A DNA stretch of 37,844 nt from Nitrospirota bacterium (lineage in GTDB: Bacteria > Nitrospirota > Thermodesulfovibrionia > UBA6902 > DSMQ01). The stretch covers positions 95,240 through 133,083 of the forward strand of contig JACRGX010000056.1 in the NCBI GenBank assembly GCA_016212185.1, in the 5' to 3' direction. The notes under the pieces are model-generated. The model searched no databases. It was not told the origin of the DNA and saw nothing but the letters and a program-made list of their open reading frames with translations. The translations under genes and the position numbers were made by a program. Below, piece by piece: positions 12,133 to 32,587 of the stretch (position 1 is the first letter of the stretch; each line of letters starts with the position of its first letter).

Positions 12133-12260
12133 AAAATATTTTAAATTACATCTGTCGTTGCTTTTCCCTGTTCTATAATCACAGCTAAAGCCCTCATTTA
12201 ACAGCAGGCTGAAAAAATACTTCACTTTAATATAAAATGTGTCAGATATTAGGCAATTAT

Positions 12261-14597
12261 ATGACCGAACAGGATGCAAGAATTGTAATCAACCGAAAGC
12301 TTATTGAATCCGGCTGGATTCTTGAAGGAGCAGGCAGGAATGTTTTGACAGAGCAGCATTGCGGCGCTGGTTTCTCCGACTATCTCCTTCTCGGCAGAAA
12401 GGGACAGAATCTTGCAGTTCTGGAAGCAAAGGATGATTCCCTCGGCGATGTTTATCTCGCAAAAGAGCAGGCGCGGGGTTATGCCCTTGCACATGGCTGT
12501 AGATATATTTTCCTCGCTAATTCAGAACAGATTTATTTCTGGGATTTGGATGAAGGCGATGCCCGCCCGATAGAAAGATTTATCTCGCCCGAAGACCTGC
12601 AACGAAGATCAGACCTAAAATTATTAAAAAAACCATTATCTCAAACAGTTCACTCCGTAAGTATTGCTGATAGACCTTATCAAGCAGAGGCAAGCGATAT
12701 TATCGCAAAATTATATGATGAAGGCAAAAGGGCATTTTTGTTGGAAATGGCAACAGGCACAGGCAAGACAAGACTTGCGGCTGCAATAATTGACAGGTTT
12801 CTCAATACACATCAGGCTGAGAGAGTTCTTTTTATTGTTGACAGGATTGAGCTTGCAAAGCAGGCGATTGAGGCGTTCCAACTTGCGTTTAGGGATAAAT
12901 ATAAGAGCGTGCGGTACAAACCGGGGCGTCACGGCGAATGGGGAGGAGCTTCAGTTGTAGTGGCGACAATACAAAGTTTAAACCTTCATTACAAGGATGA
13001 CTTTACTCCCGGTTATTTTGATATCGTTTTCAATGATGAATGTCACCGTTCTATTTATGGCGAATTGCCTCGTCAGGTAGTTGAGTATTTTCAGGCAACA
13101 AGAATCGGATTAACTGCAACGCCAAAGGATTTTTTGAGAAACATTGATATAGACAAGCTTAACGAAAGTAATCCCAAAGCCCTTGAATACAGGATAATGC
13201 GCGACACATACAAACATTTCGGATGTGAACCCGGAGAGCCGACATACAGATATACAATTCAAGATGCTGTAAATGCTTTACAGCCCGGTCCATATCTTGT
13301 CCCGTCAAAGATATACAAACTTTATTCTCTGGTTACCAAGGAATCTGCATCAGAAAACGGATGGAGCACTGAGATTGACGGTGAAGATTATACATTTGCT
13401 ATTTCCCAAATAGAAAAAAAGGTAAATGTTCCTGAGCGGAATAGGCTTATATGCAAGGAGTTTCTAAAATATGCTTTAATAACTCCTGACGGTTCAATTG
13501 GAAAGACCATTGTTTTTGCCGTATCTCAAGACCACGCAGGTGCGCTTGCAAGGGAATTAAATATGCTTGTACCGGAGGCAAACGGCAGATTTGCACAGGT
13601 TATTACCTCAAGAGTGAAAGGCGCTTCCGACCTTGCAAAGGCGTTTCGTAAAGATGAAAACTACTGGCCCAGAATTGCAGTTAGTGTTGATATGCTTTCC
13701 ACAGGCTATGATTGTCCAGAGCTTTTGAATATTGTTCTTGCCCGACCCATTGCCTCGCCTACAAATTACATACAGATAAAAGGGCGCGGTACGCGCAAAT
13801 ATGCTTTCCCTGACGGAATACAAAAGACCCATTTTATCATCCATGATTTCTGCGAGGTTGTTGAATATTTTGAGGAGAAATATGACTATAATGCGCCGTT
13901 GCCGGTCTATGAGCCTTCTGATGTATCTGAAAACCCAACACCCTTTTATCAAAAAATGAGCGGAAGTGCAGAAAACAATAAAGGCACAAACAGAGGGAAG
14001 CTTATTTCTCCTGCGCCAGACATAATAGTTTTCACGGAATTTATTGAAGTCGGCCTGGATGGCGAGAAAGTTGACAGGATGTTTTATCAAAGCATGTGGC
14101 AGGAAAAAATTCGCGAGACGGCAAAAGAAAAACCGGAACTTATTGAGGCGGCAAAGACGGATAATTTCCCTGATGAGTTGATGGAATACTTGAGAACAGA
14201 GGTTTTAAATCGCCCTGTGGAATACTTCAATGAAACTAATCTTGCAAAGGTTTACAAAATATTTGCAGACATCACGGATTTTATCAAAGAGGCATTAGGT
14301 GTTGGGAAACTGCCTACACAGCACGAACAACTTGATAAACTTATTGAGTTTCTCAAGGTTGAATATAAGCTGAATCTGTTACAGATCCGCTTGCTCAAGG
14401 TTCTGATAGAACAACTTATTCAGAGCCCAAAGTATGCTGAACAGTTTGACAGAGGTGATTTCAAATTTCTTGATAACCAGCCTTTTGCTTCCTATGGCGG
14501 TGTGGGAGCTTATGTATCAGCCTTTGGTGTAATAATTAAACCCATTTTTTCAGAGGTTAAACAAAGCCCGCCCTTTAAACTGGCAAGGATGAAATAA
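12261..14597 (+). CDS. hsdR: Type I restriction enzyme R subunit (EcoEI-like)
   Basis: About 778 residues from the preferred ATG 12261; an in-frame ATG at 12237 adds eight residues. The nuclease domain shows GFSDYLL...LEAKDD, a PD-(D/E)XK pattern, near the start. Helicase motifs follow: MATGTGKT, NDECHRS (DEAD-like), TATP and the arginine-finger motif QIKGRGTRKY. The C-terminal third (EFIEVGLDGEKVDRMFYQ onward) resembles the EcoEI R C-terminal domain. The short length fits this class. The protein translocates DNA and cleaves unmodified DNA with HsdM/HsdS. The hsdM gene begins two bases after the stop, indicating a tight operon. All key motifs appear intact. Confidence 0.93.
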   Translation: MTEQDARIVINRKLIESGWILEGAGRNVLTEQHCGAGFSDYLLLGRKGQNLAVLEAKDDSLGDVYLAKEQARGYALAHGCRYIFLANSEQIYFWDLDEGDARPIERFISPEDLQRRSDLKLLKKPLSQTVHSVSIADRPYQAEASDIIAKLYDEGKRAFLLEMATGTGKTRLAAAIIDRFLNTHQAERVLFIVDRIELAKQAIEAFQLAFRDKYKSVRYKPGRHGEWGGASVVVATIQSLNLHYKDDFTPGYFDIVFNDECHRSIYGELPRQVVEYFQATRIGLTATPKDFLRNIDIDKLNESNPKALEYRIMRDTYKHFGCEPGEPTYRYTIQDAVNALQPGPYLVPSKIYKLYSLVTKESASENGWSTEIDGEDYTFAISQIEKKVNVPERNRLICKEFLKYALITPDGSIGKTIVFAVSQDHAGALARELNMLVPEANGRFAQVITSRVKGASDLAKAFRKDENYWPRIAVSVDMLSTGYDCPELLNIVLARPIASPTNYIQIKGRGTRKYAFPDGIQKTHFIIHDFCEVVEYFEEKYDYNAPLPVYEPSDVSENPTPFYQKMSGSAENNKGTNRGKLISPAPDIIVFTEFIEVGLDGEKVDRMFYQSMWQEKIRETAKEKPELIEAAKTDNFPDELMEYLRTEVLNRPVEYFNETNLAKVYKIFADITDFIKEALGVGKLPTQHEQLDKLIEFLKVEYKLNLLQIRLLKVLIEQLIQSPKYAEQFDRGDFKFLDNQPFASYGGVGAYVSAFGVIIKPIFSEVKQSPPFKLARMK

Positions 14598-14598
14598 T

Positions 14599-16077
14599 AT
14601 GCCGACTAATTTCATAAACTCAGACCTGAGACAGAAAGTTGACCAGCTTATGGATGAACTTTGGGCAGGCGGAGTCAATAACCCGATGACTGCCATTGAA
14701 CAGATTAGTTATCTGATGTTTCTTAAGAGCCTGACTGAAATGGACGAGAAACAGGAGCAGTTACAGAAGATTATGGACAATCCACATACTCCCATCTTTT
14801 CCAATTCACTGGCAAAGTACAGTTGGCGGATTATTGCCCGTCTCTCAGGCGATGCCCTTTATGTTACGCTTTCAGAGGCTTTTGAGAAATTTCATGAGCT
14901 GCCCAATCTTTCGCCAATGGGAAAGGTTCTTTTCAGACAGGCGCATCTGAAGATTTTCAACAGACCCACACTGCGTTCAGTAGTTTCAATCATTGACGCT
15001 ATGGATTATAACAATGTCCGGGAATACGATACGGATGTAAAAGGCGACCTCTATGAATATCTGCTGGATAAAATCGCTATTTCAGGAACAAACGGTCAAT
15101 TCAGGACGCCGCGCCACATTATCAAGATGATGGTTAATCTCATAAAACCCACGGCAGGGCAGTACATCCTTGACCCGACATGCGGAACAGCAGGATTTCT
15201 TATTCAGGCATACCTTTATATCATGGAGCAAAATACAAGCGGAGAGATGAAGAAGGAAGGGCATATTACCGGCGATAAGCTGAGACCTGACCAGCACGAG
15301 TTTTTAAAAATGCACGCTTTGACAGGATATGACAATGATACGGATATGATAAAGATAGCAATAATGAATCTTTATCTTCACGGACTTGAAAATGCAAATG
15401 TAAGACATCACGACCCGCTTACTTTGCCAACAGAAAACGACAGAAAATATGACGTCATCTTAACCAATCCTCCGTTTGCAGGGAATGTGAACAAAGAGGC
15501 GATTCTTGAGGACTTTGACCTGAAGACATCAAAGACAGAACTTCTTTTCGGCGAATATTTCTACAAACATCTTGCTCCGGAAGGAAAGGCAGCAGTTATC
15601 GTTCCTGAAGGCGTATTGTTCGGCTCAACAAATGTACATAAGAAACTGAGAGCATGGCTTCTTGATGAATGCAGGATTCATGGAATAATCAGCCTTCCAT
15701 CCGGGGTATTTAAACCTTATGCAGGAGTAAAGACTTCAATTGTTGTCTTTGAACGTGGTGGTAAGACCGATAAAGTCTGGTTCTATGAAATCACGGCAGA
15801 CGGCTACAGCCTTGACGACAAACGGACTCCGCAACCTGATAAAAACTACATTCCTGACCTCATTGAAAAATGGAAGACAAAGCCGGAGACGGAGCGAAGC
15901 TGGTATGCAACAAGAGATGAGCTTGCAGAGAACGATTTGAACTTGACAGCAGGGCGTTATAAACCGCATGTTCATGAAGAAGTTAAGTATCCAGAGCCGA
16001 AAATAATTATCAGCGAGGTGATGGAGCTTGAGAATAAGATAGAGGGTGGATTAAAAAGTCTGTTAAAAAAAGTTTAA
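14599..16077 (+). CDS. hsdM: Type I restriction-modification DNA methyltransferase subunit
   Basis: A 492-residue N6-adenine methyltransferase. The helical HsdM N-domain is seen at 1-130 (MTAIEQISYLMFLKSL), with SAM motif I DPTCGTAGFLI near residue 192 and catalytic NPPF at about 290-293. It methylates the target chosen by HsdS and forms M2S, or R2M2S for restriction. The TAA overlaps an ATG (TAATG at 16075-16079), but a better-placed start for the next gene is at 16119. The gene appears full-length and intact. Confidence 0.95.
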   Translation: MPTNFINSDLRQKVDQLMDELWAGGVNNPMTAIEQISYLMFLKSLTEMDEKQEQLQKIMDNPHTPIFSNSLAKYSWRIIARLSGDALYVTLSEAFEKFHELPNLSPMGKVLFRQAHLKIFNRPTLRSVVSIIDAMDYNNVREYDTDVKGDLYEYLLDKIAISGTNGQFRTPRHIIKMMVNLIKPTAGQYILDPTCGTAGFLIQAYLYIMEQNTSGEMKKEGHITGDKLRPDQHEFLKMHALTGYDNDTDMIKIAIMNLYLHGLENANVRHHDPLTLPTENDRKYDVILTNPPFAGNVNKEAILEDFDLKTSKTELLFGEYFYKHLAPEGKAAVIVPEGVLFGSTNVHKKLRAWLLDECRIHGIISLPSGVFKPYAGVKTSIVVFERGGKTDKVWFYEITADGYSLDDKRTPQPDKNYIPDLIEKWKTKPETERSWYATRDELAENDLNLTAGRYKPHVHEEVKYPEPKIIISEVMELENKIEGGLKSLLKKV

Positions 16078-16118
16078 TGCAGTCTTTATATGGTAAAATA
16101 CCCGGAAGAGGAGGCAGG

Positions 16119-16343
16119 ATGTTAGCGAAGCTAAAGCAAAAAAATACAGTTACAGTTAAACAGTATGTAACCGATGAAAAAGGCCATAAGGTTGCTGCAA
16201 TTCTTGATATTAAAGAACTTGCGAGAATTGCAGATTTGCTTGAGGACCTTTCGGATTTAAAGACAATTGAAGGCAGAGTTGCCGAGCCATCAGAAGATTA
16301 TGAGGCATACAGCCGCAAAAGAAAATCCCGCCTGCATGTATAA
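16119..16343 (+). CDS. RelB/Phd-like antitoxin
   Basis: A 74-residue small protein starting MLAKLKQKNTVTVKQYV. I chose the ATG at 16119 because AGAGGAGG precedes it at proper spacing; an ATG at 16077 overlapping the hsdM stop would add 14 residues. The middle segment GHKVAAILDIKELARIADLLEDL looks like the N-terminal DNA-binding and helical part of Phd/RelB-type antitoxins, followed by a charged toxin-binding tail. It overlaps the downstream RelE-like gene by eight bases, the usual antitoxin-toxin coupling. The family is assigned mainly from context. Confidence 0.75.
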   Translation: MLAKLKQKNTVTVKQYVTDEKGHKVAAILDIKELARIADLLEDLSDLKTIEGRVAEPSEDYEAYSRKRKSRLHV

Positions 16344-16596
16344 GCTTGACATCAAGAAAAGCGCGAGAAAAGAGCTGGACAATCTGCAAAGTCAAATATT
16401 CCTAAAAATTGACAAAGCAATCCTTTCTTTGAAAAAAGACCCTTCCCCGTATCCACAATCCAAAGAGCTTAAAGGCGAAAATAAACGCAGATTGAGAGTG
16501 GGAGATTACAGGGTTGTGTATGCTATTGATGAACAACAAAAGATAATTACTGTTTTTCGCGTAAGACATCGCAAAGATGTTTACAGGCAAGGATAA
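16336..16596 (+). CDS. relE: RelE/ParE-family toxin
   Basis: An 86-residue protein: MYKLDIKKSARKELDNL at the start, then KELKGENKRRLRVGDYRVVY and a final VFRVRHRKDVY. These are the classic RelE superfamily segments; the LRVGDYRV strand and the C-terminal RHR region carry the residues that act on ribosome-bound mRNA in RelE. It overlaps the antitoxin gene by eight bases. The pair lies between hsdM and hsdS in the same direction and is probably co-transcribed with them. Confidence 0.87.
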   Translation: MYKLDIKKSARKELDNLQSQIFLKIDKAILSLKKDPSPYPQSKELKGENKRRLRVGDYRVVYAIDEQQKIITVFRVRHRKDVYRQG

Positions 16597-16601
16597 CTGT
16601 C

Positions 16602-17801
16602 ATGCAAAAGCCTTTGCCAAAAGGGTGGAAATGGGTGAAGCTGGGGGAGGTGTGCGAATTTGTTAGAGGTGTTACATTCGACAAGTCTGAAGTTTCAAAA
16701 GAGATCCGAAATAATTATTTACCAGTCTTGAGAGCGGGCAATATCAAAAGTAGTTTAGATACAGTTAATGATTTATTATGGGTGACTGAAAAACAAATAT
16801 CAGATAAACAGAAGCTTCAAGTAGGTGACATTGTAGTTTGCATGTCATCTGGCAGTTCTGATGTGGTAGGCAAGACAGCTCAACTGAAATATCCGTTTAT
16901 TGGCTCATTTGGAGCTTTTTGTGGGGTTATAAGAGCTAAGAATAAAGAGCAGATCGATTATGTAGCGTACTGGTTAGGGTCTTCTGCATATTATAAGTGG
17001 AGAGACGGGCAAGCCAGAGGTGTAAATATTCAGAATCTGAAATTTTCTAATTTTGAAACAATCCAAATCCCTCTTCCTCCTCTCCCCACCCAGCACAAGA
17101 TTGTTGAGATTCTGGAAGAAGCCGACAACCTGCGGAAGCTTCGCCGACAGGCGGATAAGAAGATGAAAGAGCTTATCCCCTCGCTCTTTGTCCAGATGTT
17201 CGGCGACCCTGCAACAAATCTGAAAGGGTGGGAGGTGAAGAAGTTGGGGGAGATTACCAAGCGAGTTACGGCGCAAATATTACCAACAGATTCGCCTGAT
17301 ACAGAATTCTTTTATATTGGATTGGAACATATTGAAAGCAATACAGGGGCATTAATTAATGCTAACCATCAAAAAGGAGAGGGAATCAAAAGTAATAAAA
17401 ACAAATTTGAAAATGGGGACATTTTATACGGAAAACTGAGACCGTATCTCAATAAAGTTTGGTTAGCTGATAGAAATGGTATATGTTCAACGGATATATG
17501 GGTTCTTCGTCCAATTAAGAAGGTAACGAATGGATGTTTTATTTCAACATTCTTAAAGTTTCAGCGTATTGTTAAGATGCTTAATTTAAAGACTGAAGGT
17601 GCAAATCTGCCGAGAGTAAAAGCTATAAGTTTTGATAAAGTTTCTGTCCCCCTTCCCCCTCTTTCTCTCCAGCAGAAATTCGCAAGGCTCGTTGAGGATA
17701 TAGAAGCCGAGAAGCAGAGACAGGCGGAAAGCAGGAAGAAGCTTGATGAACTCTTTCAGAGTCTCATGCAGAGAGCATTTACAGGGGAGTTGGTGGTGTG
17801 A
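16602..17801 (+). CDS. hsdS: Type I restriction-modification specificity subunit
   Basis: A 399-residue HsdS with two target-recognition domains. Each starts with a GWxxxxLGE-type element (LPKGWKWVKLGEVCEF at residue 5 and GWEVKKLGEITKRV near 209). Each ends in a conserved helix region (PLPPLPTQHKIVEILEEAD and PLPPLSLQQKFARLVEDIE), and the C-terminal helix has LFQSLMQRAFTGEL. Each TRD reads one half of a bipartite target, and the sequence cannot be predicted by eye. It begins five bases after the toxin stop. The gene looks intact, so the system is probably functional. Confidence 0.93.
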   Translation: MQKPLPKGWKWVKLGEVCEFVRGVTFDKSEVSKEIRNNYLPVLRAGNIKSSLDTVNDLLWVTEKQISDKQKLQVGDIVVCMSSGSSDVVGKTAQLKYPFIGSFGAFCGVIRAKNKEQIDYVAYWLGSSAYYKWRDGQARGVNIQNLKFSNFETIQIPLPPLPTQHKIVEILEEADNLRKLRRQADKKMKELIPSLFVQMFGDPATNLKGWEVKKLGEITKRVTAQILPTDSPDTEFFYIGLEHIESNTGALINANHQKGEGIKSNKNKFENGDILYGKLRPYLNKVWLADRNGICSTDIWVLRPIKKVTNGCFISTFLKFQRIVKMLNLKTEGANLPRVKAISFDKVSVPLPPLSLQQKFARLVEDIEAEKQRQAESRKKLDELFQSLMQRAFTGELVV

Positions 17802-19038: not shown

Positions 19039-19416
19039 ATGGCTGGCGACTATAAATCCTTTGGGGATTTTTTCAAAAGCCTTCGTAAGAGAAAAAGAAT
19101 CACGCTTAGAGAGTTTTGTATCAAGGCCTCAGCGGACCCTGCCAACATCAGCCGTCTTGAACGCGGCGCAATGGCTCCTCCGCAGGATACGGATATACTT
19201 GAACGTTACGCAAAAGCTCTTAGCATCAAAGCAGGCAGTGACGACTGGTATACCTTTTTCGATCTTGCTGCAGTAAATCGGGGAATCATACCCAAAGACC
19301 TGATGTCTGACTATGAAGTCGTAGGAATGCTCCCTGCCTTCTTCAGAACATTGCGGGGTCAAAAACCAACGGTGGAAGAGATGCAGAAACTGGTTGATAA
19401 GATAAGGAAAAGTTAG
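19039..19416 (+). CDS. XRE-family transcriptional repressor
   Basis: A 125-residue protein with an N-terminal helix-turn-helix at about residues 8-60 (FFKSLRKRKRITLREFC...NISRLERG). A helical C-terminal part follows that may dimerise. A strong RBS (AAGGAGGT) precedes the ATG. Seven bases separate it from an ImmA/IrrE-type metallopeptidase gene. In known pairs (ImmR/ImmA of ICEBs1, DdrO/IrrE of Deinococcus) the peptidase cleaves the repressor and releases its regulon. By analogy this protein likely binds the palindrome at 18994-19010 and represses its own operon. Confidence 0.85.
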   Translation: MAGDYKSFGDFFKSLRKRKRITLREFCIKASADPANISRLERGAMAPPQDTDILERYAKALSIKAGSDDWYTFFDLAAVNRGIIPKDLMSDYEVVGMLPAFFRTLRGQKPTVEEMQKLVDKIRKS

Positions 19417-19423
19417 ATACGGA

Positions 19424-20056
19424 ATGATAGACCCGGGGGAATTTAAGGCGCCATTCATAACGATTGAGGACATAAGAAAGGCAGTAGATGAATTTCGCGT
19501 ACGATATTGGCCGCGTGATACAATCCCCGTTGATATTTTTGAGATAGTTGAATTTGAACTTGACATTGAAATCCGGACAATTTTAAATCTGAAAGAAGCA
19601 GGAGATGTTGACGCATTGTTGCTCGGTGATCTAAAAACAATCGTGGTTGATCAAAACGATTTTCTGAATGAAAAGTCTCAGAACAGGCTCAGATTTTCCG
19701 TAGCGCATGAAATTGGACATCTTATCCTTCATCCTGATACTTTTTCAAAGATCCAATATTCCTCTGTCTCTGAGTGGATAGATTTTTTCCAAAAAATACC
19801 GGAGGATCAATATTATTGGATTGAACAGCATGCTTACGAATTTGCCGGAAGTTTACTCGTGCCGAGAGAAAAACTGATAGAGAAATTAAATGATGCAGTT
19901 GCGTTGGCAAAAAGTATAGGTTTTGATGCTTGGGATACATCCGGCGATTCAACCCGCCAATATATAGCTCATGGCATCGCCAAGTATTTTGAGGTGTCCG
20001 ATCAGGTGATAGAAAAAAGATTAATCAGGGAAAATCTTTGGCCGCCAATGAGATGA
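19424..20056 (+). CDS. ImmA/IrrE-family metallopeptidase
   Basis: A 210-residue protein with the zinc motif HEIGH at residues 95-99 (AHEIGHLI) and the downstream EQHAYEFAGSLLVPR segment at 134-148, where E134 is the likely third ligand. This is the standard ImmA/IrrE (DUF955) core. Family members cleave a partner XRE repressor in response to DNA damage or other signals. The partner is encoded immediately upstream. No phage structural genes accompany the pair, so it may control the nearby restriction/toxin island, a stress regulon, or only itself. Confidence 0.87.
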   Translation: MIDPGEFKAPFITIEDIRKAVDEFRVRYWPRDTIPVDIFEIVEFELDIEIRTILNLKEAGDVDALLLGDLKTIVVDQNDFLNEKSQNRLRFSVAHEIGHLILHPDTFSKIQYSSVSEWIDFFQKIPEDQYYWIEQHAYEFAGSLLVPREKLIEKLNDAVALAKSIGFDAWDTSGDSTRQYIAHGIAKYFEVSDQVIEKRLIRENLWPPMR

Positions 20057-28168: not shown

Positions 28169-28197
28169 TTGACATAGACCTGTAATAATATTATCCT
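28169..28197 (+). promoter_or_regulatory. Predicted promoter of the metallopeptidase/dCTP-deaminase operon
   Basis: TTGACA (28169-28174) and TATCCT (28192-28197) are 17 bases apart. The leader is about 65 nt and ends with a strong AAAGGAGGGG ribosome-binding site. The rest of the 27985-28267 gap shows nothing else recognisable apart from its AT richness. Confidence 0.5.
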
Positions 28198-28267: not shown

Positions 28268-28756
28268 ATGACATTGCTTAACTTAGAAGAAAAAGCAATG
28301 GTTTTTAATTTTATGCCCTTAGCAAGTCAAGTAGTTTTAGTCCTTGAAGATGCGGAAGCGGGTAAAGAGCTGAATGAGAGACAATGTTCTGTTTTAAAAA
28401 AAGGCTCAGCCCTATTGTCTCGGATTATTGAAGGGGCTACACTTGTTGAAGGGAAAAATTTTAAAGAGGGTTTGTCACCTTCAATGGAAGGGTTGTCTAT
28501 TTATGAATATGCTCTGTCGACTTTAAGAAAATTGGAATTAACCAGAGAAATTGATGGTTTTACAGAATATTTTGAAAATTATGATAAGGAATTAACCACC
28601 CTTTGTAAAAATAGAAAAAAAGATGGTATTAACATTCAAAAGTTAGAAAACTTCTTTTTTGCATTAGGCCGTTCTTTGAGCAGTGATATACAGAAGGAAG
28701 ATTACCTCCACGACAAAGAATCTATTGAGAAGCAATTGCAGTATAACGGCCAATAG
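28268..28756 (+). CDS. Hypothetical protein, first gene of accessory operon
   Basis: A 162-residue protein, acidic and largely helical by appearance. It has no signal peptide, no membrane segment and no motif I recognise (segments include SMEGLSIYEYALSTLRKLEL and FFFALGRSLSSDIQKED). It has the strongest RBS of the operon (AGGAGG) and a good promoter, and ends 11 bases before the metallopeptidase gene. Codon choice and base composition are strongly AT-rich compared with the flanking argS and tgt, which suggests transfer. It could be a sensor, an immunity-type inhibitor of the peptidase, or a substrate. Confidence 0.7.
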   Translation: MTLLNLEEKAMVFNFMPLASQVVLVLEDAEAGKELNERQCSVLKKGSALLSRIIEGATLVEGKNFKEGLSPSMEGLSIYEYALSTLRKLELTREIDGFTEYFENYDKELTTLCKNRKKDGINIQKLENFFFALGRSLSSDIQKEDYLHDKESIEKQLQYNGQ

Positions 28757-28767
28757 ACCCTCCATGA

Positions 28768-30057
28768 ATGAATATTTATAATAAAAAGTTAATTGAAGAA
28801 TATACCTTCCAAATAATATCTCGTGCTAAATCAATAATTACTCGATGCAATTCTTTGTTATCTCAAGATTTTGCTTCTGACGCGCCTAAAAGATTAGCAG
28901 AGACTCTTATAAAAAGCTGCGAATATTTAGAAGAAGCGACCATATATTTTTATAAAGACATAGAGTGGAGTAACACAAAAAAAGTTGAAGCGAGTTTTAC
29001 TTTACTACAAGCTATAGATTCCGTTGTTAGAGATATTGGAGCACATATACGCTATATAGATGGCGCTTTGACCCAGAAACTTCCGTGGAGTTTCGTCATA
29101 CCAATTCAAAAAAATATAAAAAACTACTTACCTGGTACCGATATTGAGATTTTACTCAGGCCGCAATGGAAATATAATTATACAATTATTACTGATAATC
29201 TTTATGATTACTATTACAAGATATTATCTCCATATGAATTATTTACAAAAACTGATTTAAAAGATGTGCTTAAGATTAGTAAAAATTTCTATATTATATC
29301 TTTTCCTACAATTGAAAGAAAAAATATTCTCCTACATTGTCTCTTGGGACATGAAATAGGTCATCTTGCTTCAAAGGAGTTCATTAAAAGATTTAGAGAA
29401 AAAGCTCTACAAAATATTAAGAATGATATAAACCCTGTTATTGTAAAAGATATTAATGCAAGATTTGACGAGGTGATGAATAAAAAAAAGACAGAGAATG
29501 GCACCGAAATTCCTCCTTTATTTTTGCATGAAATAAAGAAAGGTTTAATACAAGAAGAATTAAGTAGAGCAATAAGAAAAGCAACAAAAGCGTGGGAAAA
29601 TGGTCTTGAGGAGATATTATCAGATATAATTGGTTGTATTTTATTTGGTCCAGCCTTATTATTTTCTCTTTTAGAAATTGCCCTTCAGAAAAGTGATGGT
29701 TTAGATGTAAAGCCATCAGATGAAAATAGGTATTATCCTCCGTGGCGTATGCGTCTTCGTGAAGTAGTAAATATAGTTAATGATATGACTGTGTTTCCTT
29801 TACCAAAGGATAAATTTAAAAATAAAAATATACCTCAAAGTGTATCGGAACGGTTTGACATAATAAAGGATATTGTTAAAGAAGAAACGGATCAAAAACA
29901 AATTGAAACAGATGTTACTTTAAATATTTCATATAAATATATTAAAGAGCATATTACTGAAGGGAAAAAGTTTTTTATTGAAAAGTATAAGCCACTATCA
30001 AAAGACTTTTATAATAAAGAATCTGATTTTTATGAAAAAAATACCACATTTAATTGA
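28768..30057 (+). CDS. Putative zinc metallopeptidase (HEIGH motif), accessory operon
   Basis: A 429-residue protein. The zinc motif GHEIGHL is at residues 194-200 (H195, E196, H199). About 80 residues later WENGLEEILSDIIGCILFGPA (E281/E282, D286) gives the glutamate third ligand and aspartate expected of gluzincins. The N-terminal 130 residues look helical with no secretion signal, so it is probably cytoplasmic. The tail after YYPPWRMRLREV is charged. I do not recognise a named family. It is AT-rich and sits between an unknown gene and, downstream, a small ORF and a dCTP deaminase homologue with overlaps, so all four are likely one unit. It may activate or process a partner protein, by analogy with ImmA-type peptidases. 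Confidence 0.72.
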   Translation: MNIYNKKLIEEYTFQIISRAKSIITRCNSLLSQDFASDAPKRLAETLIKSCEYLEEATIYFYKDIEWSNTKKVEASFTLLQAIDSVVRDIGAHIRYIDGALTQKLPWSFVIPIQKNIKNYLPGTDIEILLRPQWKYNYTIITDNLYDYYYKILSPYELFTKTDLKDVLKISKNFYIISFPTIERKNILLHCLLGHEIGHLASKEFIKRFREKALQNIKNDINPVIVKDINARFDEVMNKKKTENGTEIPPLFLHEIKKGLIQEELSRAIRKATKAWENGLEEILSDIIGCILFGPALLFSLLEIALQKSDGLDVKPSDENRYYPPWRMRLREVVNIVNDMTVFPLPKDKFKNKNIPQSVSERFDIIKDIVKEETDQKQIETDVTLNISYKYIKEHITEGKKFFIEKYKPLSKDFYNKESDFYEKNTTFN

Positions 30058-30334
30058 AAGATTAGCCCTTGGAATACCACCTAATGCGTATGAAAAAAGT
30101 GTTAATGAAAGGGAACCTGTAAATTTAACCTATATTTTTAATGCTACGTGGTTTTATAAAATCTCTTATGCTAAAAAACTGATTGATGAAGAAGGAAACC
30201 TTAATGAGGGAATAAAGAATGAACAAGACAGAATGAATCGCTTAGCACTAAAAGCAATTGAATACTCTGATATTGAAAAGAAGTATAGAGAAGAGAAGGG
30301 GGTTCCTTCCAGATATGAGTTTGATAAATTATGA
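30032..30334 (+). CDS. Small hypothetical protein, accessory operon
   Basis: About 100 residues from ATG 30032 (MKKIPHLIERLALGIPPNAYEKSV). It overlaps the metallopeptidase gene by 26 bases and the dCTP deaminase-like gene by four (ATGA). The start could also be 18 codons earlier at 29978. It looks like a soluble helical protein with a charged C-terminus (DIEKKYREEKG). No family was recognised. The tight overlaps on both sides support a real, translationally coupled gene. Confidence 0.65.
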   Translation: MKKIPHLIERLALGIPPNAYEKSVNEREPVNLTYIFNATWFYKISYAKKLIDEEGNLNEGIKNEQDRMNRLALKAIEYSDIEKKYREEKGVPSRYEFDKL

Positions 30335-30933
30335 GCGCACTAACTAAAAAAGATATTTTTCACTGTATGAATAAAGAAATAGAGAGCCGTTTAGTTATTA
30401 CTCCGTTGTTCGACCCTCGTGATTCATTTGATGCTTCTGCTGTGAATGTGCGACTTGGCAATGAATTTATTGTTATGAGAAAACAATCTTTTCCGTTATT
30501 AGACATTGCTGACGAAACATCGTTGAAAAAAGTAGAAAGATATTATGAAAAAATTACGCTAAGATATCATGAAGAATTTGTACTTCATCCAAATCAACTT
30601 ATAATAGGAAGTACACTTGAATATATCTGCTTGCCCAGTGATTTAATGTGTTATGTAGCTGGAAAATCTACTTGGGGACGTATGGGATTAATAATTGCTA
30701 CTGCTACAAAAGTAGACCCTGGCTTTAAAGGCTGTATTACATTAGAAATAATTAATGAAGGGGAAGTACCAATTGCCGTTTATCCAGGAATTCCGATTGC
30801 CCAATTAGTATTTCATGAAACTACAAGTAACGCAAAATATGATGGACGATATGTATGCCCGACAGGACCTCAATTCCCTGATTTCTCAAGAAGCAAAAAA
30901 AAGTGGGATTTTTGGTATCCTAAAAAACAATAA
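30331..30933 (+). CDS. dCTP deaminase-family protein
   Basis: A 200-residue member of the dCTP deaminase/dUTPase superfamily. GKSTWGRMGL (residues 111-120) and KVDPGFKGCITLEIIN (127-142) align with the E. coli Dcd active site; E139 is at the position of the catalytic Glu. PIAVYPGIPIAQLVF follows, and the C-terminal YDGRYVCPTGPQFP resembles the Dcd lid. It is divergent from housekeeping Dcd at the N-terminus (LTKKDIFHCMN) and in the middle insert. dCTP deaminases deplete dCTP in some phage-defence systems, which is the most attractive reading here; a simple dUMP-supply role is also possible. It is the last gene of a four-gene AT-rich operon. Confidence 0.83.
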   Translation: MSALTKKDIFHCMNKEIESRLVITPLFDPRDSFDASAVNVRLGNEFIVMRKQSFPLLDIADETSLKKVERYYEKITLRYHEEFVLHPNQLIIGSTLEYICLPSDLMCYVAGKSTWGRMGLIIATATKVDPGFKGCITLEIINEGEVPIAVYPGIPIAQLVFHETTSNAKYDGRYVCPTGPQFPDFSRSKKKWDFWYPKKQ

Positions 30934-30963: not shown

Positions 30964-31095
30964 GAGCTTGTCTAAAAACTCAGATTCCTACAAAAATTCG
31001 TCATTCCTGTGTAGGCGGGAATCCAGTTTTTTCAATATGCTTTGAACTACCGGTCAAGCTGGAGGATGACAAATACTGAGTTTTTGGACAAGCTC
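30964..31095. mobile_element. MITE-like element with 20-bp terminal inverted repeats
   Basis: The ends GAGCTTGTCTAAAAACTCAG (30964-30983) and CTGAGTTTTTGGACAAGCTC (31076-31095) are inverted with one mismatch. The 132-bp unit has no coding capacity and contains CATTCC...GGAATCCAG stems like the other palindromic repeats here. No clear target duplication was seen. The gene-free stretch 30934-31431 holds this element, a yajD relic and the higBA promoter. Confidence 0.8.
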
Positions 31096-31170: not shown

Positions 31171-31279
31171 GGCACACCATACTTAACTTTTATTAACCCC
31201 CCAATCTCAAATCTTCCCCCCTGTCCCCTTAAGATAATCTCCGGGCAGTGCTCTGCTGTGCTCGTCGTCATGGCAATAG
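31171..31279 (-). pseudogene. Relic of a yajD 3' end (duplicate copy)
   Basis: About 90% identical by eye to 32208-32315, in the same orientation. On the minus strand it still encodes CHDDEHSRALPGDYLKGTG and a stop, matching the C-terminus of the intact HNH gene. Nothing upstream of that segment resembles yajD, so this is a truncated duplicate. Together the two copies flank the HigBA pair. Confidence 0.85.
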
Positions 31280-31431: not shown

Positions 31432-31785
31432 ATGCCATGGGCGATTGAGTATTACGCTACTGTTGATGGTAAACGACCGGTAGAGAAATTCATTGATTCC
31501 CTATCTCCGGAGGGCAAAGCCAACTATGTTTTTATTGCAGACCTGTTAGAGGAATACGGACTAAATGTAAAAGAACCTTATGTGAAGCCGATCACCGGCA
31601 GCAAGAAGCTATTTGAAATAAGAATAAAAGACAGGTCCAATATCCACAGGATATTTTATTTTGCCTATACAGGCAAGAAATTTATTCTATTGCATGGTTT
31701 CACAAAAAAGACAAAAAAAACGCCGCGAAAAGAAATAGAGATAGCCATTAAAAGGATGCAAGACTATATCTCAAAAAAGAGGTGA
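31432..31785 (+). CDS. higB: HigB/Gp49-like (RelE superfamily) toxin
   Basis: A 117-residue protein: MPWAIEYYATVDGKRPVEKFIDSL at the start, KPITGSKKLFEIRIKDRSNIHRIFYFA in the middle, FILLHGFTKKTKKTPRKEIEIA near the end. These are the standard segments of the phage-derived Gp49-like/HigB family, mRNA interferases that act at the ribosome. The toxin-first gene order with an XRE antitoxin after it is the HigBA pattern. Its TGA overlaps a GTG, but the antitoxin more likely starts at ATG 31791. Confidence 0.9.
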   Translation: MPWAIEYYATVDGKRPVEKFIDSLSPEGKANYVFIADLLEEYGLNVKEPYVKPITGSKKLFEIRIKDRSNIHRIFYFAYTGKKFILLHGFTKKTKKTPRKEIEIAIKRMQDYISKKR

Positions 31786-31790
31786 CATTT

Positions 31791-32168
31791 ATGAGTTACA
31801 CTTACAGGGAACATAGGAAAAAACTGTTAAGGGACAAAGAAGTTAGAGAAGCATGTGAAAACCTGCTTCCTGAATATGAACTTGCTAAAAGCATCATAGA
31901 GCAGAGATTAAAAAAGAAAATGACACAGGAGGATATTGCAGTCAAAGCTGGAATTCCCCAATCTACGGTATCAAGGATAGAAAGACTTACACATGGCCTG
32001 CCGAAATTATCCACGCTTAAAAAGATAGCCGAGGCCCTTGACGCTAAAATAATCATCAGGTTTGAGGCAAAAAAAGCTCCCCGACCGTATATCGTTGACA
32101 CAAAGCATGAAAAGCTGTTTGCAATCAATGAGGCAAAAAGGCATTACGGCAAGAGAACTCGAAGTTAA
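31791..32168 (+). CDS. higA: HigA-type XRE antitoxin
   Basis: A 125-residue protein with an HTH at about residues 40-95 (MTQEDIAVKAGIPQSTVSRIERL). I chose ATG 31791 because GAGGTGA precedes it at correct spacing; a GTG at 31782 would overlap the toxin stop. It should neutralise HigB and repress the operon through the palindrome at 31405-31422. The C-terminal part (LFAINEAKRHYGKRTRS) is basic and probably variable. Confidence 0.9.
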   Translation: MSYTYREHRKKLLRDKEVREACENLLPEYELAKSIIEQRLKKKMTQEDIAVKAGIPQSTVSRIERLTHGLPKLSTLKKIAEALDAKIIIRFEAKKAPRPYIVDTKHEKLFAINEAKRHYGKRTRS

Positions 32169-32207: not shown

Positions 32208-32315
32208 GGCACCCCATACTTCACTTTTATTAACCCCCCTCCTCAACTCTTTCCCCCTGTCCCCTTAAGATAATCTCCGAGCAGTGCTCTGCCGTGCTCG
32301 TCGTCATGGCAATAG
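32208..32315. repeat. Direct repeat, yajD 3' end (intact copy)
   Basis: The 108-bp partner of 31171-31279, in the same orientation, with most differences in a short C/T-rich patch. It covers the last 24 or so yajD codons and about 35 bp past the stop. Confidence 0.85.
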
Positions 32316-32587
32316 ATGCAGAGGTTTTCCCAGTTGGAGCCGTCAGGAGGATTGTTTTGGCGGTTGCCGTCTTTATGATGCACTGTGAGGAGGCGCCGGT
32401 CTTTGGAATCAAACTCCCTCCCGCATTTGGCGCATATCAGGCCGTGGATTTTCAGAGATTGCCCCCTGTAATCGGAGACAGGGGCCTTGCCCTCTTTTAA
32501 TTCCCGGACGATTTCAGAGGCGGTCTTGCCTGCGGCGGGCTTTTGCGGCCGGGGGTTTCTGAATTTTATTCGTTGTCTGCTTCCCAA
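32243..32587 (-). CDS. yajD: HNH endonuclease family protein YajD
   Basis: A 114-residue protein. The Zn-finger-type CAKCGREFDS and the HNH core LTVHHKDGNRQNNPPDGSNWENLCIYCHDDEH match E. coli YajD closely; a basic N-terminal extension replaces the usual start. The TTG at 32587 is preceded by GGGAGTGAG at good spacing. The physiological role of YajD is unknown. The 3' end and the sequence beyond it (32208-32315) are duplicated at 31171-31279 on the far side of higBA. Confidence 0.85.
   Translation of the reverse strand: MGSRQRIKFRNPRPQKPAAGKTASEIVRELKEGKAPVSDYRGQSLKIHGLICAKCGREFDSKDRRLLTVHHKDGNRQNNPPDGSNWENLCIYCHDDEHGRALLGDYLKGTGGKS

Follow-up and report, generated by a model that had tools for sequence, protein, structure and literature searches.

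We analyzed a stretch of 37,844 nucleotides (the window) from a Nitrospirota bacterium (contig JACRGX010000056.1 of assembly GCA_016212185.1; contig C56 of a 2.33-Mb metagenome-assembled genome, 97.6% complete). Between argS and tgt lies an island of 30% G+C content, flanked by sequence of approximately 44% G+C, which carries four open reading frames (ORFs) separated by intervals of 11, −26, and −4 bases; they are referred to below as genes 1 to 4 (Table 1). The ORFs and spacings of the initial annotation were re-derived as given, and the sharp contrast in base composition that it described was borne out: the four ORFs have G+C contents of 0.29 to 0.35, and 0.20 to 0.31 at third codon positions (GC3), against 0.42 to 0.47 and 0.48 to 0.51, respectively, for argS, the small gene that follows it, and tgt. 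The ORF overlaps, together with a conserved gene order, argue for co-transcription. Comparison with relatives indicates that the real unit is one of three genes, encoding a small helical protein, a putative gluzincin-type zinc peptidase, and a Dcd-fold nucleotide enzyme, and that the second gene is interrupted in the window copy. This three-gene unit is widespread among bacteria and apparently undescribed, and the locus represents one copy acquired by horizontal transfer.

Genes 2 and 3 encode a single, interrupted peptidase

Gene 3 had been listed as a gene in its own right, but it encodes the C-terminal domain of the peptidase that starts in gene 2, shifted one base in frame. Four independent genes were rejected on the basis of a profile match (Table 1), the single ORFs of relatives, and a codon-level comparison. 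In relatives, genes 2 and 3 form one ORF, mostly of 470 to 507 residues, and gene 3 is 36 to 52% identical to the C termini of these single-ORF peptidases, the best matches (50 to 52%) being those at loci L005, L006, and L007 (L and G numbers denote loci and genomes, respectively). At L004, which is the same locus as L011 in one genome of the window's class, gene 1 is followed by a 491-residue ORF spanning genes 2 and 3, and then by gene 4. A genome-wide scan gave 12 loci; in those with a full-length peptidase, the gene 3 part, where recognizable, is the C terminus of the peptidase ORF.

The reading frame switches at a run of seven adenines (A7), a site across which the frame stays open in every one of the 11 relatives that have a full-length peptidase and can be compared. 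A search with the peptidase profile found no second peptidase gene in the source genome. Both observations favor the view that the window copy is a decayed, functionless remnant, irrespective of the role of the family, and we consider this a serious possibility, if somewhat short of even odds. Against it, both halves retain every conserved motif and contain no additional stops, and the break maps between predicted helices of the intact L007 homolog, beside a usable ATG whose ORF overlaps gene 2 by 26 bases. Besides decay, the two-frame arrangement could possibly reflect two working polypeptides, dependence on slippage, or an assembly error.

The peptidase is probably M48-like

The peptidase signature reads HE[IVL]GH...ExxxD...[HY]P[PS]xxxxR, in which HE.GH, ExxxD, and one downstream Arg are invariant in our alignments; H195 and E196 lie where the initial annotation placed them and do not vary among relatives. 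The same order of motifs (HExxH, ExxxD, HPxxxxR) is found in M48 peptidases such as HtpX and Ste24/ZMPSTE24. The gene 2 family differs from these in being soluble, in its long N- and C-terminal helical regions, and in giving no significant sequence or fold match to them. The best M48 profile score, obtained with the phage-plasmid copy described below, was 17.4 (E 0.004), under the Pfam cut-off of 20.3, and no Pfam model above cut-off, PADLOC model, or NCBIfam model was matched by the peptidase. PDB searches with the peptidase, by sequence and by fold, returned nothing significant. An AlphaFold2 (AF2) model of the intact L007 homolog (mean predicted local distance difference test score [pLDDT] 91; predicted template modeling score [pTM] 0.88) had no significant fold match in the PDB or among viral structures; the best metallopeptidase was Ste24p (E 0.35, probability 0.63, not significant), and an hhalign comparison with HtpX covered the ExxxD region alone. 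Taken together, the motif order and these faint signals from sequence and fold suggest an M48-like gluzincin.

The peptidase had been described as ImmA-like. This kinship was rejected, as library searches (Pfam, NCBIfam, and PADLOC) with gene 2 and its intact homologs gave no ImmA/IrrE (M78) match. Profile comparisons of the main-clade peptidase with the phage-plasmid clade (E 4e-9), L019 (5e-14), and L043 (9e-19) were significant, and these branches can therefore be joined over most of their length.

Gene 4 is an additional Dcd-family enzyme

The identification of gene 4 as a dCTP deaminase homolog held up well: it scored above the equivalog cut-off of TIGR02274 (E 3.4e-38; Table 1) and far above the cut-off of PF22769 (116 versus 27; E 1.9e-33). 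It is 47 to 70% identical to the third gene of its nearest relatives, and its nearest solved relatives are the Dcd enzymes of Escherichia coli and Bacillus halodurans. Residue E139, at the position given earlier, is Glu in 23 of 23 Dcds associated with the unit (system Dcds), and S113 and R117 are likewise invariant in this set; the three correspond to Glu138, Ser111, and Arg115 of housekeeping Dcd (E. coli structures 1xs1 and 2j4h; bifunctional B. halodurans enzyme, 4xjc), with which the system Dcds share family and fold. They differ from the housekeeping enzymes in having operon partners, in carrying W or Y in place of the usual L after SS/ST, in a shortened H121 loop, and in often lacking the motif III Asp, and they occur beside another Dcd or dUTPase gene. 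The loop is shortened in 22 of the 23, and is two residues shorter still in the phage-plasmid clade; because the aligned B. halodurans enzyme has a shortened loop too, this feature alone is no argument for inactivity. At the motif III position (D129), system Dcds carry D, H, Q, N, S, or E. Most system Dcds separated from housekeeping Dcds in a tree in which many forks were unresolved.

The initial annotation had noted that its reading would fail if gene 4 were the only Dcd of the organism. That is not the case, since a second Dcd gene adjoins pyrF on contig C2 of the source genome. At least two matches to Dcd models were found in 14 of 15 genomes bearing the system, although in some genomes the second match is weak and may represent a dUTPase. 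As the hosts carry another Dcd or dUTPase-family gene, gene 4 is unlikely to serve a housekeeping role. No PADLOC family matched gene 4 at E ≤ 10, or the phage-plasmid Dcd at E ≤ 0.01.

Gene 1 encodes a small helical protein

The gene 1 product is 54 to 30% identical to the proteins in the same position at L007, L005, L008, L006, and L009. No family in the Pfam, PADLOC, or NCBIfam libraries matched it, and none of these libraries revealed a helix-turn-helix (HTH) domain. The best Foldseek hints were to HEPN proteins (E approximately 0.5, not significant); with no invariant catalytic pair, a HEPN toxin was rejected. Homology of gene 1 can be demonstrated within the main clade only; profile comparison did not support it beyond, where the likeness is one of position and size.

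The three-gene unit is widespread but patchily distributed

The order small protein, gluzincin, Dcd was found at approximately 18 independent loci in eight named phyla, which bears out the co-occurrence in other genomes on which the initial reading depended. The loci belong to Nitrospirota (the window; L005; L011 of genome G136, which holds a second, diverged copy; and L046, interrupted by an insertion sequence), Acidobacteriota/Aminicenantes (L006 and L007), Bacteroidota (L009 and plasmid L023), Campylobacterota (L010), Fibrobacterota (L014), Neomarinimicrobiota (L016), Chloroflexota (L012, and L013, where peptidase and Dcd are fused as one 607-residue ORF), plasmids of Pseudomonadota (L017, L019, L024, L025, and L027 to L030), and an unclassified bacterium (L008). 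Searches with gene 2, which are blind to Dcd, gave 12 loci; in 10 the next gene encodes Dcd and in an 11th (L013) Dcd is fused to the peptidase, the only locus where none was found being L015 of the spirochete Treponema, whose peptidase is truncated.

Among the carriers are conjugative plasmids as well as D6-like phage-plasmids of E. coli and Salmonella, with the same gene order; one example is the intact unit of the E. coli D6-like phage-plasmid pEC213_2 (L024:5522-7526). In several phyla, copies are chromosomal and show no sign of a plasmid in the vicinity. A peptidase match was present in 5 of 396 sampled genomes of the phylum, two of them with the Argonaute-linked form described below, and the phage-plasmid form was present in 8 of 5,426 complete E. 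coli genomes, always on a plasmid. Searches of plasmids by tblastn with gene 1 and the window gene 2, a scan of viral contigs, and a comparison of the phage-plasmid peptidase with a phage collection yielded nothing useful. The earlier statement that no system with this gene set has been described agrees with the open-access literature, in which we found no description; subscription journals were outside the search.

Two observations concern individual copies. In two phyla, homologous ribbon-helix-helix-like proteins of 68 to 71 residues are encoded shortly before the unit (L007:6173-6388 and L011:6135-6341); they are possible regulators and have no counterpart at the window copy. At L016:3466-4520, the system Dcd ORF extends through a HicB-like domain and is followed by a HicA-like gene; either Dcd is fused to an antitoxin here or a stop codon has been lost.

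Relatives of the unit lie near defense genes and in Argonaute operons

Known defense genes recur near the unit. It sits within a type I restriction-modification (R-M) operon at L023; a type IIG R-M gene (E 1e-273) lies directly downstream at L009, as do PD-Lambda-5 A and B (1e-186 and 7e-116) at L014. A multiubiquitin/ThiF operon is found upstream at L027, L029, and L030, with a PtuA-like (3e-79, Septu-like) or ThsA-like SIR2 gene (6e-26) downstream at L027 and L029; an RT-nitrilase-like gene (6e-39) precedes the unit at L028, and E1-JAB and E2-ubiquitin proteins are encoded alongside it at L011. On D6-like phage-plasmids, the unit is found where phage D6 carries orf80 and simB, the latter a superimmunity-related gene. 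These neighborhoods lend support to the defense role that had been suggested for the locus.

In two Nitrospirota genomes, a relative of the peptidase shares an operon with genes for an XRE regulator, a Cas4-like nuclease (4e-100), and a prokaryotic Argonaute (pAgo; 4e-277); this peptidase is related to the phage-plasmid clade by profile comparison (E 9e-9). Both operons (L044:681-5888 in G321 and L045:389-5735 in G081) encode XRE, the nuclease (PADLOC Aga_Cas4-like), a class II pAgo, a protein of 121 to 124 residues, and the peptidase. In this arrangement, the last two genes would extend Argonaute systems by a gene pair that has so far gone unannotated. A Sinorhizobium plasmid (L031:1-6062) encodes an AAA/STAND-like ATPase of approximately 1,560 residues, overlapping a HEVGH peptidase of approximately 460 residues; the latter matched gene 2 by tblastn only, and profile comparison did not confirm the kinship.

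Proposed function and alternatives

We propose that the unit is a horizontally transferred conflict system, most likely directed against phages; judging from sequence and genomic context, we put the probability of a defense role at roughly 0.75 to 0.8. In favor of the proposal are the fixed gene order, the intact active-site motifs of both enzymes, the natural peptidase-Dcd fusion, the defense neighbors and the carriage on plasmids and phage-plasmids among relatives, the extra Dcd or dUTPase-family gene of the hosts, and the anomalous base composition. Of the initial reading, the conserved unit, the nonhousekeeping Dcd, and the defense context were retained, whereas the four-gene composition, the ImmA assignment, and the kinship with known deaminases were not. 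Peptidase-controlled depletion of dCTP, as first suggested, is one of two mechanisms still in play. In the version that we favor, the small helical partner, the M48-like zinc peptidase, and the extra Dcd would make up the system; peptidase and Dcd would reside in one complex, kept inactive with the small protein, until infection switched the peptidase on. The activated peptidase would then cut either the small protein or the complex containing Dcd, and the freed Dcd would deaminate dC nucleotides, starving phage replication. Peptidase-gated attack of this kind is favored because the deaminase glutamate never varies, and we judge the odds of this specific mechanism to be about even. Several observations count against the proposal. 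The sequence is compatible with either enzyme as sensor or effector, and in the pAgo operons the peptidase is found with no Dcd. The window copy of the peptidase is frameshifted, and in the phage-plasmid clade the alanine-containing active-site loop of Dcd is shortened, so that deaminase activity there is not assured. Four near relatives have no known defense genes nearby; L005 (between hisC and hisB), L006, L007, and L010 are surrounded by genes of housekeeping appearance, and the tallies of defense neighbors are raw counts with no null expectation.

The roles might be reversed, with a Dcd-like sensor of dCTP or a related, phage-altered nucleotide, the peptidase as a toxic effector that cuts host proteins and aborts infection, much as Lit cuts EF-Tu, and the small protein as inhibitor or chaperone. 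We regard this as less likely than the favored mechanism, though not by far, since Argonaute operons also contain the peptidase, paired there with a sensor-type partner, pAgo, and a Cas4-like nuclease; a STAND-like ATPase is possibly another such partner, but that kinship fails profile comparison. The altered loop and D129 position in most system Dcds, with the nucleotide-binding S, R, and E kept, would suit a binding protein; however, the catalytic E139 is invariant in all 23, and Dcd is never swapped out within the main family. Carriage on conjugative plasmids and phage-plasmids, toxin-antitoxin genes near the window copy and its relatives, and the L016 Dcd ORF with its HicB-like extension and adjacent HicA would fit a stabilizing, toxin-antitoxin-like cargo, or superinfection exclusion by plasmids and phage-plasmids, in place of general anti-phage defense. 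We consider this improbable, given that the unit repeatedly adjoins genes of the restriction, PD-Lambda-5, Septu-like, SIR2, and ubiquitin-like kinds and that several phyla have chromosomal copies. Strongly disfavored, and the least probable of these alternatives, is an ordinary metabolic cluster in which a second Dcd supplies dUMP beside an unrelated peptidase operon: gene 4 does exceed the equivalog cut-off for dCTP deaminase and some copies are located among housekeeping genes, but the fixed order of three genes over eight phyla, the overlapping genes and one fusion, the Dcd or dUTPase-family genes elsewhere in the hosts, and the patchy spread all argue otherwise.

A broader and more tentative idea, which extends the anti-phage reading, is that the small helical protein and the unclassified gluzincin form a new immune module, a portable proteolytic switch or effector that could be coupled either to Dcd or to Argonaute and a Cas4-like nuclease, and that could serve as inter-phage weaponry on phage-plasmids.

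Comparison with known systems

AvcD is a zinc-dependent toxin with a cytidine deaminase fold, paired with the RNA antitoxin AvcI. It depletes dCTP and dCMP (PMC10511110), and AvcID and the dCTP deaminase systems (Hsueh 2022, Tal 2022) employ a dC-nucleotide deaminase as anti-phage effector, as proposed here. A link between gene 4 and these deaminases had been suggested, but the activity is common to both by name while the folds differ: gene 4 has a trimeric, dUTPase-like Dcd fold and is accompanied by genes for a peptidase and a small protein. AvcD kinship was rejected, as gene 4 matched no defense deaminase in PADLOC. The unit may resemble AvcID in outcome without being one. With CapH/CapP, an XRE repressor and an ImmA-type peptidase, it has in common a metallopeptidase and a small partner tied to varied defense effectors; it differs in that gene 1 encodes no HTH protein and the gene 2 peptidase lacks ImmA/M78 matches. 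The Lit protease of the E. coli e14 element, an HExxH protease that acts in phage exclusion, cleaves EF-Tu; compared by description, it is a single-gene effector with no Dcd partner.

If our interpretation is correct, attack on dC nucleotides in bacterial immunity would have evolved a second time, on an unrelated fold and under the control of, or paired with, a metallopeptidase, and the link between peptidase and Argonaute would account for an unannotated part of Argonaute operons. The unit is masked in current annotation, where Dcd is labeled as a housekeeping enzyme and its partners as "hypothetical protein." The copies on D6-like phage-plasmids of E. coli and Salmonella make direct testing in laboratory E. 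coli possible.

Other elements at the locus and in the window

The single shared promoter of the initial annotation was not confirmed: a candidate sigma-70 site precedes gene 1 by 71 bases, but such sites were equally frequent in shuffled sequence (14 in the region versus 14.5 ± 3.3 in shuffles). A genome of a sister family (G198) carries other variable genes after argS and the gene next to it and thus offers no clean empty site.

Table 1. Coordinates of features at the three-gene locus (window positions)
Feature	Position	Strand	Evidence or remark
Candidate sigma-70 promoter, TTGACA-17-TATCCT	28169..28197	+	Consensus scan; at chance level in this region
Gene 1, first in the unit, all-helical protein of 162 aa	28268..28756	+	AF2 pLDDT 84.9, five helices
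Gene 2, N-terminal and catalytic part of putative gluzincin, 429 aa	28768..30057	+	47 to 31% identical to single-ORF relatives
HEIGH zinc motif, residues 195 to 199	29350..29364	+	HE.GH invariant in 12- and 13-row alignments
EILSD, residues 282 to 286; predicted third zinc ligand E282, with D286 (ExxxD)	29611..29625	+	E and D invariant in alignments
"Gene 3," 100 aa, peptidase C-terminal domain in another frame	30032..30334	+	Peptidase profile positions 368 to 485, E 3e-28
A7 run, frame switch between peptidase halves	30035..30041	+	Codon-level comparison; six relatives open here
Gene 4, Dcd-fold nucleotide enzyme, 200 aa	30331..30933	+	TIGR02274, 131 bits (cut-off 92.8)
E139 codon, counterpart of catalytic Glu138 of E. 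coli Dcd	30745..30747	+	Aligned to 2j4h/1xs1
Element like a miniature inverted-repeat transposable element, 132 bp, with 20-bp terminal inverted repeats (I2, 95% complementary)	30964..31095		Directly after gene 4, at the right edge of the AT-rich unit

Elsewhere in the window, genes reading as type I R-M hsdR, hsdM, and hsdS (12237-17801) form a second defense-type island. An XRE regulator and an ImmA-type peptidase, CapP-like by PADLOC (2e-15), are encoded at 19039-20056, approximately 8 kb upstream of the unit; this peptidase gene (19424-20056) is unrelated to that of gene 2. Just downstream of the unit (31432-32168) are genes for a Gp49/HigB-like toxin (PF05973, 6e-27) and an overlapping XRE antitoxin, flanked by direct repeats at 31171-31279 and 32208-32315 that are 88 to 94% identical. 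A small HNH-like ORF (32243-32587) has the right repeat as its 3′ end, and the end of this HNH gene seems to have been duplicated around the toxin-antitoxin module.

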